This document shows, in pieces, positions 34,318 to 39,476 of a DNA stretch of 64,000 nt. This DNA is from Streptomyces aquilus (GTDB lineage Bacteria > Actinomycetota > Actinomycetes > Streptomycetales > Streptomycetaceae). The translations under genes were made by a program, and so were the position numbers. Numbering within the stretch: position 1 is the stretch's first letter; every line of letters begins with the position of its first letter. The stretch spans positions 9,176,001 through 9,240,000 of the forward strand of contig NZ_CP034463.1 in the NCBI RefSeq assembly GCF_003955715.1, given 5' to 3'. The notes under the pieces were generated by a model, which saw only the letters and a program-made list of their open reading frames with translations, did no database searches and was not told where the DNA came from.

Positions 34318-34419
34318 GTCAAGCCGAACGGAGGAATTCACCCCGCAGGGTGCAGGGACGCCTAGACTCGACAGCCGTGCCCATACCTGTGGGCCGTGAC
34401 ACGAAAGGCACGTTGACGG

Positions 34420-34641
34420 GTGTTCCAGGATTCCCCCATCTATGACCGACTCATCGCGGAGCGCGGCGACATACCCACTCAGGTTCGCAGGGAGGCCGAG
34501 CGAGTCAGCAGGGAACTGGAGTTCGCCATGCAGCCCCTCCAGTCCATCGGCCGTTCCCAGCTCGGCGAGCTGCCCCCGCCGCCTCCGCCGCCCCCGGGCT
34601 GGCAGCGCAACGCGCTCATGCCCGGCCCCGGACAGCTGTGA
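34420..34641 (+). CDS. Small hypothetical protein at graspetide locus, 73 residues
   Basis: The N-terminal 45 residues form an amphipathic, charged helix (SPIYDRLIAERGDIPTQVRREAERVSRELEF), followed by a run of eight prolines and a short Gly/Pro tail. GTG 34420. A TAGACT -10-like element lies near 34361. It converges on the ATP-grasp maturase with only three bases between stop codons. It resembles small proteins that I remember beside such maturases in Streptomyces, but that is unverified. Function unknown. Confidence 0.7.
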   Translation: MFQDSPIYDRLIAERGDIPTQVRREAERVSRELEFAMQPLQSIGRSQLGELPPPPPPPPGWQRNALMPGPGQL

Positions 34642-34644
34642 CCC

Positions 34645-35622
34645 TCAGGTGAGCGCGGTGTTCGCGCCGTTGACCTGTGCCCCCTCACCCGGCACCGGAC
34701 GGGCCAGCCACTCGGCGATGGTGCGCGCGATCGGCTGACCCGTCTCCACCTCCACGAAGCCGAACTGCCCCGACTGGTTGCACTCCAGGAACCACCACGT
34801 CCCGTCCGCGTCCTCCGCGAAGTCGAAGGCGCCGTAGGCCAGTTCGGCACCCCGCAGATAGGCGCGCACCGCGTCGGCGACCCGCGGCGGCACCTCGGCG
34901 GCCTGCCACGGATGGGTGGCGGAGGCGAAGCGGACGTCGACCTCGTCCGGATCCGCCGCCGTGGACTTGCGCGCGGCCAGCATCCGCTCACCCACCACCG
35001 TGAGCCGGATGTCCGCCCGCTTGGCTATCCGGCGCTGAAGCAGCGTCGGACCGTACGCCACGGCCCCGAAGTCCGCGTCCGGCGCCACCCTGCTGGTCGG
35101 CACCGCCCGCGGCGGGTCCTGCGGATGGGCCCCCGACACCGGCTTGACCACCAGATCCGGGTACCGCTCGGCGAACTCCCGGGCGGCCTGCGGAAAGGTC
35201 GTGATCAGCGTGGCCGGCACGGGCAGCCCGGAGCGCTGGGCCAGCCGCAGCTGCCAGGGCTTGTGACGGGCCCGACGGGCCGCGTCCGGGTGGTTCATCC
35301 ACCGCGCCTGCGAGCTGCGGAGCATGCCGTAGAGCGCCTGCGACGACTCCTCCGTCAGCCACTCGGACGGCTCGGCGGCCCGGGTGGCGGCCGTGCCCGG
35401 CCGGCGCACCCACACGGACCGCAGTCCGTTGATGCTCACCAGCCGCCCCCCGGACGACAGATGGCCGCGGAAGGAGCCGTGCACGTACTCCCCGGACAGC
35501 GCCGCGCTCCCCGTCAGGTCGGCCGGGTCGAGCCGCACCACCGGCACCCCGGACGCGTTGAGGTGGACGACCACCATGTCGGCCGTCACGTCGGCCTCAC
35601 AGGTCAGGATCAACACGGTCAT
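34645..35622 (-). CDS. tgmB: ATP-grasp RiPP maturase (SAV_5884-type)
   Basis: This 325-residue ATP-grasp ligase should form omega-ester (or amide) bonds between Thr/Ser and Asp side chains of a precursor peptide. The N-terminal pre-ATP-grasp domain is MTVLILTCEADVTADMVV. It has adenine/phosphate contacts DLVVKPVSGAHP (residues about 175-186), the R-rich segment LLQRRIAKRADIRLTVVGERMLAARK, and metal-binding YGAFDFAEDADG and FLECNQSGQFGF. It starts 16 bases after the precursor gene's stop with a weak ribosome site of its own, so translation is probably coupled. Family name follows my memory of the SAV_5884 group. Confidence 0.9.
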   Translation of the reverse strand: MTVLILTCEADVTADMVVVHLNASGVPVVRLDPADLTGSAALSGEYVHGSFRGHLSSGGRLVSINGLRSVWVRRPGTAATRAAEPSEWLTEESSQALYGMLRSSQARWMNHPDAARRARHKPWQLRLAQRSGLPVPATLITTFPQAAREFAERYPDLVVKPVSGAHPQDPPRAVPTSRVAPDADFGAVAYGPTLLQRRIAKRADIRLTVVGERMLAARKSTAADPDEVDVRFASATHPWQAAEVPPRVADAVRAYLRGAELAYGAFDFAEDADGTWWFLECNQSGQFGFVEVETGQPIARTIAEWLARPVPGEGAQVNGANTALT

Positions 35623-35638
35623 GTACGCCGACCCGTGT

Positions 35639-35830
35639 TCAGTCGTCGAAGTGGGTCTTCGAACCGGCAGTTGACGTCGTCGTTCCGAGCTCTCTCAGCA
35701 ACGCCAGGTCGTGGGCGGCTATCCGCCCGTCCGAGAGCACGTTCAACTGCCGTCCGGAGTCGTACACATACGGAGTGGTGTCCTCCGACTGTGCTGCCGG
35801 GCGGGCGTAGTTGAGCGCGAACGGTTGCAT
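35639..35830 (-). CDS. tgmA: ATP-grasp-modified RiPP (graspetide) precursor
   Basis: This 63-residue peptide has the leader pattern known for the ATP-grasp target family: PFALNYARPAA at residues 3-13, PYVYD at 20-24, QLNVLSDGR at 28-36. The C-terminal core is GTTTSTAGSKTHFDD, residues 49-63, with seven Thr/Ser donors and two terminal Asp acceptors, allowing at most two side-chain esters if only these acids are used. ATG 35828-35830 has a GGGAGAG ribosome site. The maturase gene follows directly. Confidence 0.92.
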   Translation of the reverse strand: MQPFALNYARPAAQSEDTTPYVYDSGRQLNVLSDGRIAAHDLALLRELGTTTSTAGSKTHFDD

Positions 35831-35919
35831 CGTCTCTCCCTCGTGGATGCTGCGCCGAGCCGGCGGCGGTCACTCGCACCGTCGCCCGGGTCGCCGACTG
35901 CCGTCGGCCTCCTAGGACT

Positions 35920-35948
35920 TATACGAATCGAACGGGTGATTGGTTTCC
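35920..35948 (-). promoter_or_regulatory. Possible ECF-type promoter of the graspetide operon
   Basis: On the minus strand GGAAAC (35948-35943) is followed after 17 bases by CGTATA (35925-35920), resembling an ECF-sigma promoter with GGAAC-type -35 and CGT -10. It lies 90 bases before the precursor start. TATAAG also fits a general -10, so sigma type is uncertain. Confidence 0.35.
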
Positions 35949-36020
35949 TTACTGTGTGTAACCAGAGGCGGCGGGGGATGCGGGGACGGGGGAGACAGAT
36001 GGGGACGTCGAGGCGTGTGA

Positions 36021-36305
36021 TCAGGCCGTATCGGTGAATTGGTCACGCTCCGCGTACGCGCGCATGCTGCGCAGAGCGAGCAGCAGAACACCGATGTCGT
36101 CCAGATACACAGGGTCGACCAACAGGTCGGCCGGCAGCAGGAAGTAGGCGAGGGCGCCCCAGAAGACCCACCGCGGACCGGTCGGCAGCCCGGCCCGCCT
36201 CAAGTCCCGCCGGGTGCGCAGGAGTCGTGCGAAGACGACCACGGCCGCGGCCAGCAGGACCGCCGCGATCACCGCGGCGACGACGATCACGGTGCGGGTG
36301 TCCAC
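36021..36305 (-). CDS. YkvA/DUF1232-like membrane protein
   Basis: This 94-residue protein has an N-terminal membrane anchor (IVVAAVIAAVLLAAAVVVFARLL) and the DUF1232 core WGALAYFLLPADLLVDPVYLDDIGVLLLALR, a helical pair with conserved P-D-x-(I/L)-P-D-like turns. Function is unknown in the family. GTG 36305 has GGAGGG eight bases upstream. It precedes the graspetide genes on the same strand but is 190 bases away with its own likely signals. Confidence 0.85.
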   Translation of the reverse strand: MDTRTVIVVAAVIAAVLLAAAVVVFARLLRTRRDLRRAGLPTGPRWVFWGALAYFLLPADLLVDPVYLDDIGVLLLALRSMRAYAERDQFTDTA

Positions 36306-36382: not shown

Positions 36383-36579
36383 GGCCGACAAGGCTCGAAC
36401 CGGTGCCATCGAACACCAGTGGGAGTGCAGGGGTGTGGGCCGCCGGGAGTCCGTCATACCCGTGGCCCATCCGAGTGGCACGGTCGGGCGCGGGCCCCTA
36501 GTAATGGTCACCGTAACGTTGCGTGTCGCGCGTCGGGGGCGCAGCAGCGGCCGCATCTCATCCGCTTGGAGAGCCGCGC

Positions 36580-37617
36580 ATGACCAGTAGTCCGTCAACA
36601 CCTCAGTCGAACGAACCCGCCATATCCGTCACGGAGCCGATCAGCCCCTTCGCGCCGACCGGCGACCGAGGGGACGGGAGCGTCCCGGCGTACGGCGATC
36701 CGGTCGACGGACTGGTCCGTGCCGCCGTGGCCGATCGCCCCCTGGACGAGGTGGCCCAGCTCATCACACTGCTCGAACAGTCACCCCGGTACGCCCGGGC
36801 CACCGCCGACGCGCTCCGCGCGGTCGGGCTGAACCGCTCCGTGGACGACGTCACCCGGCTGGTGGTCCTGCTGACCCGGCCGCCGCGAGACGCGTCCGGA
36901 GCCGACGAGGCGATCCGTGCCGCGGCCGAGTCCCGCCCGGTCGAGGAGGTGACCCGGCTGATGGCCCTCCTCCGGCAGGCACCGCTGGAACCCCACTGCG
37001 GACAGGAGGCGGTGCGGGCGGCCGCCACCGGCCGACCCGTCGAGGACCTCGTGGAGCTGATCGGCCGCCTGGCCGACGAACGCGGCGGCACCCACCCGCC
37101 GCGGCAGCCGGAGGAGACCGCCGCGACACCGCCCGCGGCGCCTCGGGAGGGAACCCCGGTGCCGCGCGCGGCACGCGTGCGCTTCCGCAGCGCCACCCCG
37201 CCCGCCTGGCCCGGCCGGCTGGCCGCACTGGCGCTGTTCGGCTGCGCCGCCGCGTACTTCCCGGCCCACCAGGACGGTGTCTCCCTGCGCCGCTACGGCT
37301 TCGTCCTCGGCCTGTCCGGCGTGTGCCTGCTCCTCGCCCTGCTGGTGACGCTGCGCCCGACGGCGCCGCCGCTCACCCTCGCGGTCCTGGTGCCGGCCGC
37401 CCTGGCCGCGACCCAGCTGTACGCGGCCCGCTTCGACTCGGGCCGGCTGTCCCGCGCCCTCGACCTCACCCTCGCCCCGGCCTGGGCCGCCGGACTGGCC
37501 GCCGTGTGCGCGGCCCTCGCCGCGCTGACCGCCCTGGTCGTACGGCTGGCCTCCCCACCGCCCCACCTGAACACGACGGAACGCCTGCTCGCCGAGGCCC
37601 AGCGCACGACGGACTGA
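36580..37617 (+). CDS. Membrane protein with four N-terminal helical repeats
   Basis: This 345-residue protein begins with about four copies of a 34-36-residue helical repeat (motifs LDEVAQLITLLEQSP, VDDVTRLVVLLTRPP, VEEVTRLMALLRQAP, VEDLVELIGRLADER, each preceded by an RAA-rich helix). A Pro-rich linker follows, then four to five membrane segments. The repeats resemble a small solenoid for protein contact. ATG 36580 follows TTGGAGAG. Function unknown; a SigB-like promoter upstream suggests stress expression. Confidence 0.8.
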   Translation: MTSSPSTPQSNEPAISVTEPISPFAPTGDRGDGSVPAYGDPVDGLVRAAVADRPLDEVAQLITLLEQSPRYARATADALRAVGLNRSVDDVTRLVVLLTRPPRDASGADEAIRAAAESRPVEEVTRLMALLRQAPLEPHCGQEAVRAAATGRPVEDLVELIGRLADERGGTHPPRQPEETAATPPAAPREGTPVPRAARVRFRSATPPAWPGRLAALALFGCAAAYFPAHQDGVSLRRYGFVLGLSGVCLLLALLVTLRPTAPPLTLAVLVPAALAATQLYAARFDSGRLSRALDLTLAPAWAAGLAAVCAALAALTALVVRLASPPPHLNTTERLLAEAQRTTD

Positions 37618-37699: not shown

Positions 37700-38386
37700 A
37701 TGACCGACGTGTCCGCGGACCCCACGGCGCCGTCCGAGGTGCTGCGTGCCGCCTACACCGCCTTCGCGGCGGTGGTGCGGCCGTTGGAGGACGAGGAGTC
37801 CTGGCGGCCGACCGGCTGCACGGGCTGGGCGGTGCGCGACCTGATCCTGCACTGTGTCTCCGACTGTCAGCGGGCCCTGGTCGCCCTGCACACGCCGGCC
37901 GCCGGACCCGCCGACCGTGACGCCGTCACCTACTGGCAGGACTGGCGGCCCGATCCCGTCGGCGCGGCCAACGGGCGGCGCTGGAGCCGGGTGGGCGCCA
38001 GCATGTTCCTGGACTTCCGTCAGCTGCGGGAGCTGTATCTGGAGACCGCGGCGGCCACGGTCACGGCCGCCGCGGCGACAGCCCGGGACCGCCTCGTCGC
38101 CACGCAGGGCCATGTGCTCACCGCCGGGGACCTCATGACGACCCTGGCCGTCGAGGCCACGATCCACCACCTCGACCTCGTCGTGGACCTGCCCGGCGTG
38201 CCGGGGCCGTCGTCCGTGGGCCTGGCCGCGGTGCGCGCCACCCTGGACGGGCTGCTGGGCCGTCCCGTCCCGGTGGCGTGGAGCGACGAGCACTACGCCC
38301 GCGCCGCCACCGGCCGCGCGCCCCTCACGGATGCCGACCGCCGCCTGCTGGGAGCCGACGCCGAACACATCCCGCTGTTCAGCTGA
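37700..38386 (+). CDS. Maleylpyruvate isomerase-like, mycothiol-dependent (DinB fold)
   Basis: This 228-residue protein fits the actinobacterial TIGR03083 group: PTGCTGWAVRDLILHCVSDCQRAL supplies a conserved His (of the H-x-H metal site) and VEATIHHLDLVVDL supplies the other histidines. Members are mycothiol-dependent isomerases or transferases, many uncharacterised. ATG 37700. Its end overlaps the convergent gene by eight bases. Confidence 0.85.
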   Translation: MTDVSADPTAPSEVLRAAYTAFAAVVRPLEDEESWRPTGCTGWAVRDLILHCVSDCQRALVALHTPAAGPADRDAVTYWQDWRPDPVGAANGRRWSRVGASMFLDFRQLRELYLETAAATVTAAAATARDRLVATQGHVLTAGDLMTTLAVEATIHHLDLVVDLPGVPGPSSVGLAAVRATLDGLLGRPVPVAWSDEHYARAATGRAPLTDADRRLLGADAEHIPLFS

Positions 38387-39476
38387 CGCCGTCGCCGTCC
38401 TTCGGGGGCCGGCGCTTGAGGCGTTCGAAGGTCCGGGTGAGCTGGTGCAGCGGGGATGCGGGCTGCTGCTCGGCGGGCGGCGCCGTCGGTTCGGCGGCGC
38501 GGCCCTCGCGGTAGGCGGCCAGCGCCTCGTTGGCGCGTTCGGCGGCCTCCCGGTACAGATCCCGGGACTTGGTCATGGCGTCGAGCGCCTCCGCGTACAT
38601 GGCGACGAGCTCGCGCTGCCGGGCGAGCTCCTCCTCCAGGGTCAGCAGCCCCCACTTCTCCCGCAGGTCGGTGACCGCTTCCACGGCGTCGCCGGGCAAC
38701 GGCCTGGGGAGCGCGGCGAACCGGGTCAGGACGTCGACCAGCTCCGTGGGCGGCGTCCCGTCGAGGAAGACGCTGCGTACGGAGAACTCGTCGGCGTCGT
38801 GACCGGACGGCAGCGGCGGCAGGACGACGGCGCCGCCGCGCGGCACCTGCACGTCGAGGTCCTTCAACGCCCAGTTGACGGCCCGCAGTTGGTGCGGCGC
38901 GGCGCGGTGCTCCACCACGCGGTGCTCAAGTCCCGGCGGCAGCAGCCCGGACAGCGGGCGCAGGCCGCGCTCGTCAGGGGTCATGGCTTCGTGCACGACC
39001 ACATGGACCGCCCACGACTCGCGCGCGCAGCTCTTCAGCAGGCGCCGCATCTCCTTGTCGTCCTCGGTGAGCCGGTTGACCTCCCGGAAGCGCACACCGG
39101 CGACCGTGTCGTGGTCCCACTGCGCCTCCGGACCGAGCGCCCAGAACATGCCGACGGGGGAGGGCCAGGACATGTTCCAGGCACGCTCCGCCTCCGCCAC
39201 CAGCACCCACTCCTCGTCGGTGAGGGTCAGCCGGGCCCGCACGGTCACCTCGTCCTCGACCCGCCAGCGGGCCTCGAAGACCCGTTCCTCCGGAAGTTCC
39301 TGGAAGTCGTCGACGACCCCGTCGTCCTTCAGCTGCCGCAGGTGCGAGGCGCGGAGCACGTCCACCGCGGCGGAGTCGGCATGACGGCCGCGCAGCTGCC
39401 ACACGGTGGCGGAGGTCGTGGTGGACGAGGCGGTGGTGGCGGAGATCGGCATGAGTCCATCTGTGGGCGGGGGCAC
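38379..39476 (-). CDS. Hypothetical protein with C-terminal coiled coil
   Basis: This 365-residue protein has no family I can name. The first 300 residues look mixed alpha/beta (EARWRVEDEVTVRARLTLTDEEW, WDHDTVAGVRFREV), and the end, EEELARQRELVAMYAEALDAMTKSRDLYREAAERANEALAAYREG, is a probable coiled coil before a Pro-rich tail. GTG 39476 has GGGAGG upstream. It stands alone. Confidence 0.75.
   Translation of the reverse strand: MPPPTDGLMPISATTASSTTTSATVWQLRGRHADSAAVDVLRASHLRQLKDDGVVDDFQELPEERVFEARWRVEDEVTVRARLTLTDEEWVLVAEAERAWNMSWPSPVGMFWALGPEAQWDHDTVAGVRFREVNRLTEDDKEMRRLLKSCARESWAVHVVVHEAMTPDERGLRPLSGLLPPGLEHRVVEHRAAPHQLRAVNWALKDLDVQVPRGGAVVLPPLPSGHDADEFSVRSVFLDGTPPTELVDVLTRFAALPRPLPGDAVEAVTDLREKWGLLTLEEELARQRELVAMYAEALDAMTKSRDLYREAAERANEALAAYREGRAAEPTAPPAEQQPASPLHQLTRTFERLKRRPPKDGDGVS

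Follow-up and report, generated by a model that had tools for sequence, protein, structure and literature searches.

A two-gene graspetide locus lies in the stretch of Streptomyces aquilus DNA analyzed here (64 kb in all, referred to as the window), and the question it raises is what such a pair makes when no methyltransferase gene accompanies it, and whether the pair is anything new. A preliminary description had placed a 63-residue precursor directly before an ATP-grasp ligase. This arrangement was confirmed on the minus strand, with an intergenic gap of 16 bases (Table 1). The same description had called for a search with the TIGR04186 and TIGR04187 models, and both proteins scored above the cut-offs. 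The precursor, MQPFALNYARPAAQSEDTTPYVYDSGRQLNVLSDGRIAAHDLALLRELGTTTSTAGSKTHFDD (63 codons), has the leader and the Thr/Ser/Lys plus Asp/Glu core of a graspetide precursor and reached 45.1 bits on TIGR04186 (cut-off, 25) and 126.4 bits on the Pfam family PF14404, Strep_pep (residues 1 to 63 of 63; cut-off, 25), while the graspetide-type ligase adjoining it downstream reached 395.7 bits on TIGR04187 (profile positions 1 to 311 of 312; cut-off, 350). A profile search of the whole genome (10.39 Mb, one contig) returned a single place for each of the two TIGR models, namely these two genes. Both genes are real and intact.

The leader segment PFALNYARP belongs with the Phhx(1,2)h type of motif known from PMC8939145, where Strep_pep is listed among precursor families dating to a 2009 survey. 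Among 117 distinct 63-residue precursors, Phe4 occurred in all and Pro3 in 115, and the invariant leader residues were Phe4, Tyr21, Gln28, Asn30, Gly35, and Ala38. This segment is likely to be the docking site for the ligase. Judged by sequence, the ligase has a solved orthologue, PDB 9BOU (MvdD-like pre-ATP grasp domain-containing protein), to which it aligned over residues 1 to 323 with 585.5 bits and 268 of 327 aligned positions identical. The structure is from another strain; among the 80 relatives in the matches listed, the enzyme closest to it is that of S. violaceorubidus (317/328). Its source is presumably the 2024 study of a graspetide cyclase with dual function (Rubin 2024); a literature search for 9BOU found no paper.

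Table 1. Features of the locus and its surroundings (window positions). Neighbor counts were obtained by tblastn, up to 6 kb on each side, in 80 relatives among the matches listed.
Feature	Positions	Strand	Basis or occurrence
Precursor peptide gene, PruA-type, 63 aa	35639..35830	(-)	TIGR04186 and PF14404; S. prunicolor orthologue
Leader motif PFALNYARP, residues 3-11	35798..35824	(-)	Residue conservation
Core segment GTTTSTAGSKTHFDD, residues 49-63	35642..35686	(-)	Conservation; donor candidates T50-T59 and K58, acceptors D62 and D63
ATP-grasp graspetide synthetase gene, PruB-type, 325 aa	34645..35622	(-)	TIGR04187; PDB 9BOU
Purine-rich stretch AGGGAGAGACG, just 5' of precursor start	35831..35841	(-)	Conserved in alignment of 81 upstream regions
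Promoter-like 35-base element GTAAGGAAACCAATCACCCGTTCGATTCGTATAAG	35918..35952	(-)	Conserved in relatives; overlaps palindrome
BldD-box-like palindrome TTACACACAGTAA	35949..35961	(-)	Fits TNAC-N5-GTNA
DUF1232-like gene, upstream			56/80 relatives
Small convergent proline-rich gene, downstream, just past ligase	34420-34641		41/80 relatives
DUF2269 gene			40/80 relatives
Gene	38379-39476		39/80 relatives
FtrA-like regulator gene			36/80 relatives
Gene	36523-37617		32/80 relatives
ABC exporter gene			29/80 relatives
Gene	37700-38386		6/80 relatives

As to the product, one locus of S. prunicolor NBRC 13075 (L047) encodes a core identical to that of the window over residues 49 to 63, GTTTSTAGSKTHFDD, and is also close in the rest of the precursor (55/63 residues identical over its full length) and in the ligase (268/328 aligned columns identical). 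Prunipeptin, a peptide from that species, reportedly comes from a cluster of just two genes, carries a single ester and a single isopeptide bond, the latter from Lys, and has a variant named 15HW; counting from Arg46, His60 is residue 15, which is consistent with that variant name. The published title, cited in PMC13097080, presents prunipeptin as novel and bicyclic and as the product of a cryptic S. prunicolor cluster; its MIBiG entry is BGC0002725 (PMC11888242). In the S. prunicolor genome, TIGR04186 and TIGR04187 each match at three places, which form three pairs; two of the pairs adjoin a TIGR04188 methyltransferase above the cut-off, and L047 is the sole pair without one, with no tblastn match to such a gene in 19 kb. 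Since L047 is the only methyltransferase-free locus of the three, published prunipeptin very probably comes from it, as the species name and the reported two-gene cluster also suggest. The window locus, with the same core and, like the reported prunipeptin cluster, two genes and no methyltransferase, would then very probably be the orthologue of the published locus. Thus, the earlier statement that the peptide has no described product is not supported, given the identical core and the published prunipeptin.

The absence of a methyltransferase was borne out. A tblastn search of the 64 kb window with two S. prunicolor graspetide methyltransferases (E ≤ 1e-5), which recovered both source loci as positive controls, found no match, as the preliminary description had stated for the surroundings of the locus. 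That description had also allowed for a partner elsewhere in the genome, and none of nine TIGR04188 matches across the genome (E ≤ 0.001) exceeded the cut-off of 380. One of the nine belongs to the FxLD-system methyltransferase family (TIGR04364, 498.5 bits; cut-off, 320) and was set aside; it lies at L042:12369-13724 (C1, about 3917368-3918723), close to a weakly TIGR04188-like gene (112 bits; L042:5850-7019), and this region is possibly another peptide-modifying cluster. One more match lies at C1:3925897. In S. prunicolor, the graspetide loci L123 and L124, with adjoining methyltransferases above the cut-off, have quite different cores.

The missing methyltransferase had been presented as something special, a view that a survey of related loci did not support. 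In each of the 162 PF14404-type loci examined, a number that includes duplicates between the two genome sets used, the ligase follows immediately downstream on the same strand, and no neighboring methyltransferase match appeared, while two control loci were positive. This test is weak for 49 loci with 1.5 kb of flank and strong for 113 with up to 5 to 6 kb, some of them clipped by contig ends; the latter comprise the 80 relatives among the matches listed and 33 loci picked at the low-scoring end of a 295-genome search, and the count among them was 0/113. Absence of a methyltransferase looks like the norm for prunipeptin-type loci. In the genus sample of 295 genomes, scores above the cut-off were obtained in 210 genomes for TIGR04187 and in 107 for TIGR04188, so that the genus has ligases both with and without the methyltransferase.

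These results bear on whether the locus could instead make an aspartimide-type (group 13) graspetide, with a PIMT-like methyltransferase acting from elsewhere in the genome. The nine TIGR04188 matches, the best at 264 to 269.7 bits, speak for such a partner, but all fall short of the cut-off, and 0/113 relatives with long flanks showed the gene as a neighbor. The best match, a 490-residue PIMT-like protein (L041:9031-10503; C1, about 3859030-3860502), was rejected as the partner and is unlinked, about 5.3 Mb from the locus; no relative of the ATP-grasp ligase or the precursor was found in the 19 kb around it (E ≤ 1e-3), and S. prunicolor has its counterpart (about 69% identical) besides two true graspetide methyltransferases. 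We consider the aspartimide reading highly improbable. That the locus is a decayed or nonfunctional copy is very improbable: nothing was found in its favor, both frames are full length against the models, the alignment of the ligase with PDB 9BOU is nearly complete, and core differences from relatives are almost all synonymous. Indeed, comparison of the window with the 80 relatives among the matches listed gave 582 synonymous and 7 nonsynonymous differences in core codons (residues 49 to 63) versus 858 and 852 in leader codons (residues 1 to 48), and the core ratio indicates that the precursor is conserved by more than chance.

The nature of the two rings is the closer question, and here the alternative is that the same two-gene locus makes both rings as Thr/Ser esters to Asp62 and Asp63, with Lys58 left free. 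In the 117 distinct precursors (relatives L011-L040, L043-L122, and L126-L177), 10 of the 15 core residues (T51, S53, A55, G56, S57, T59, H60, F61, D62, and D63) are invariant; position 50 is T, A, or S in 108, 8, and 1, position 52 is T or A in 114 and 3, position 54 is T or K in 112 and 5, and position 58 is K, Q, or A in 93, 13, and 11, respectively. An all-ester peptide would accord with the invariance of T51, S53, S57, and T59 and with the replacement of Lys58 in 24 precursors, 19 of which lack any core Lys (for example, GTTTSTAGSQTHFDD). On the other hand, Lys58 is kept in the large remainder, all five precursors with Lys54 have Ala58 (for example, GTTTSKAGSATHFDD), as if the Lys donor had moved, and the reported ester plus isopeptide pattern of prunipeptin also argues for a Lys donor. 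Taken together, an all-ester product seems unlikely to us for S. aquilus. Since Gln or Ala replaces Lys58 in 24 of 117 precursors, an amide from Lys58 cannot be formed by every member of the family; cores that are Lys-free or Lys-shifted may represent all-ester or shifted-amide peptides. The preliminary description had proposed two rings with Asp62 and Asp63 as acceptors and bonds from Thr50 to Thr59 only; the acceptors are likely, both being invariant in 117/117, whereas the donor range was drawn too narrowly, for Lys58 is a candidate as well and the ester and Lys isopeptide reported for prunipeptin suggest that donors at the locus are not only Thr.

We conclude with high confidence that this is a prunipeptin-type graspetide locus, with a two-ring product that likely contains an ester and a Lys58 amide. 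By analogy with known graspetides, the adjoining ATP-grasp synthetase would bind the precursor at its N-terminal leader and use ATP to phosphorylate Asp62 and Asp63 on their side chains, in keeping with the phosphorylation of acceptor carboxylates and subsequent donor attack described for graspetide synthetases (PMC13097080). Side-chain nucleophiles of TTTSTAGSKT would then attack and close two rings, each at the cost of one water (-36 Da in all). Of these, one would very likely be an ester formed by Thr or Ser, and for the second an amide of Lys58 is probable; no methyltransferase would be involved. The leader would afterwards be cut off by a protease, and none was recognized among the scanned neighbors of the locus.

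We also compared 81 upstream regions (the window and 80 relatives among the matches listed). The purine-rich stretch is ribosome-binding-site-like and may serve as such a site. The promoter-like 35-base element occurs at one place in the whole genome, and the palindrome forms the left part of the conserved element; no sigma factor was assigned to the 35-base part, and a scan of positions 34400 to 36100 found no sigma-70 promoters or terminators. As a candidate site in the promoter, the window palindrome matches the strict 13-base BldD-box consensus TNAC-N5-GTNA (PMC4151990) and eight of nine positions of the 15-base form given in PMC7374567. At the conserved place, 45 of the 81 regions have the strict form and 36 do not fit it, and 79 fit when the first base may be T or C; the 15-base form scores 9, 8, 7, and 6 of 9 in 17, 34, 20, and 10 regions, respectively. 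The palindrome starts 130 to 152 bases 5' of the start codon in 68 regions and 72 to 73 bases in 13.

How far this pattern points to BldD can be weighed from both sides. Among 200-base upstream regions generated by first-order resampling, which is not exact shuffling, such a site occurred anywhere in 87 of 4,050 in one count and in 247 of 4,050 in another. Because the anchor that locates the conserved place already dictates most of the palindrome's right half, independent evidence comes from the left half. In eight of the 81 regions, the palindrome has the same 13 bases as BldD-box I of S. ghanaensis ssfg_02181, a box described there as the main binding site (PMC7374567). Against BldD, strict 13-base matches are far from unique, with 7 in the 64 kb window; the 15-base form, when one mismatch is allowed, was counted there 4 times versus 5.06 expected. 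A literature search for BldD together with graspetides found no paper, and among the matches listed for the names of the genes and families none was relevant. The conserved promoter element with its BldD-box-like palindrome is possibly a new point, although a modest one.

The neighborhood of the locus is partly conserved in relatives (Table 1), which fits vertical inheritance. The small proline-rich gene beyond the ligase had no family match in profile models or Pfam. Prunipeptin is said to be labeled a group 11 graspetide. Genes for DUF397 and DUF5753 can accompany that group, although this is not a strict feature (PMC13097080), and a Pfam scan detected neither among nine proteins of the locus and its neighbors. 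In the genus sample, PF14404 exceeded its cut-off in 161 of 295 genomes, with 164 matching at E ≤ 0.001; an order-level sample that overlaps this one had matches in 200 of 391 genomes (194 above the cut-off), all but 2 from Streptomyces. At least 120 relatives of the locus were found, and the 80 kept, among the matches listed, were all from Streptomyces; the prunipeptin cluster family is given as 3,589 members, 3,572 of them in Streptomyces (PMC11888242). The locus is an ordinary member of this known and common Streptomyces family, its two-gene pair already known, and the methyltransferase-free state, which looks normal for the family, makes the locus itself ordinary.

What the locus adds is one more member, and it is the regulation and conservation that could matter. 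That over half of the genomes in the genus sample encode a nearly unchanged peptide, with a BldD-box-like site in its promoter, points to a role in the life cycle of the producer. We tentatively suggest, as a possibility that we ourselves hold to be doubtful, that prunipeptin-type peptides are conserved developmental peptides and not weapons of competition: BldD with c-di-GMP would hold the operon off during vegetative growth through the palindrome and release it at differentiation, the nearly unchanging core would be directed at a conserved target that the producer itself carries, and the variants that lack or have moved the Lys would keep the fold with other donors. Lys-free and Lys-shifted cores offer natural tests of what an ester/amide cyclase requires, and the natural occurrence of cores in which the Lys is lost or shifted is possibly a further new point of modest weight.

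Compared with known systems, the ligase shares a superfamily with the microviridin ligases MvdC/MvdD and MdnB/MdnC, scoring 132.5 and 118.4 bits on TIGR04185 and TIGR04184, far under their cut-offs (425 and 475), and 102 bits against PDB 5IG8; unlike microviridin systems, the locus has one ligase, and its core differs. The graspimiditides (group 13: fuscimiditide and amycolimiditide) have, like this locus and the two other graspetide loci of S. prunicolor, a TIGR04186-type precursor and a TIGR04187-type ligase, but they carry an adjoining PIMT-like methyltransferase (PMC13097080), a TIGR04188-type gene found neither in the window nor in the genome above the cut-off, and their core is different. 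The closest likeness is to S. prunicolor L047, which has the same two-gene order, likewise without a methyltransferase, and departs from the window locus in eight leader residues and the ligase tail.
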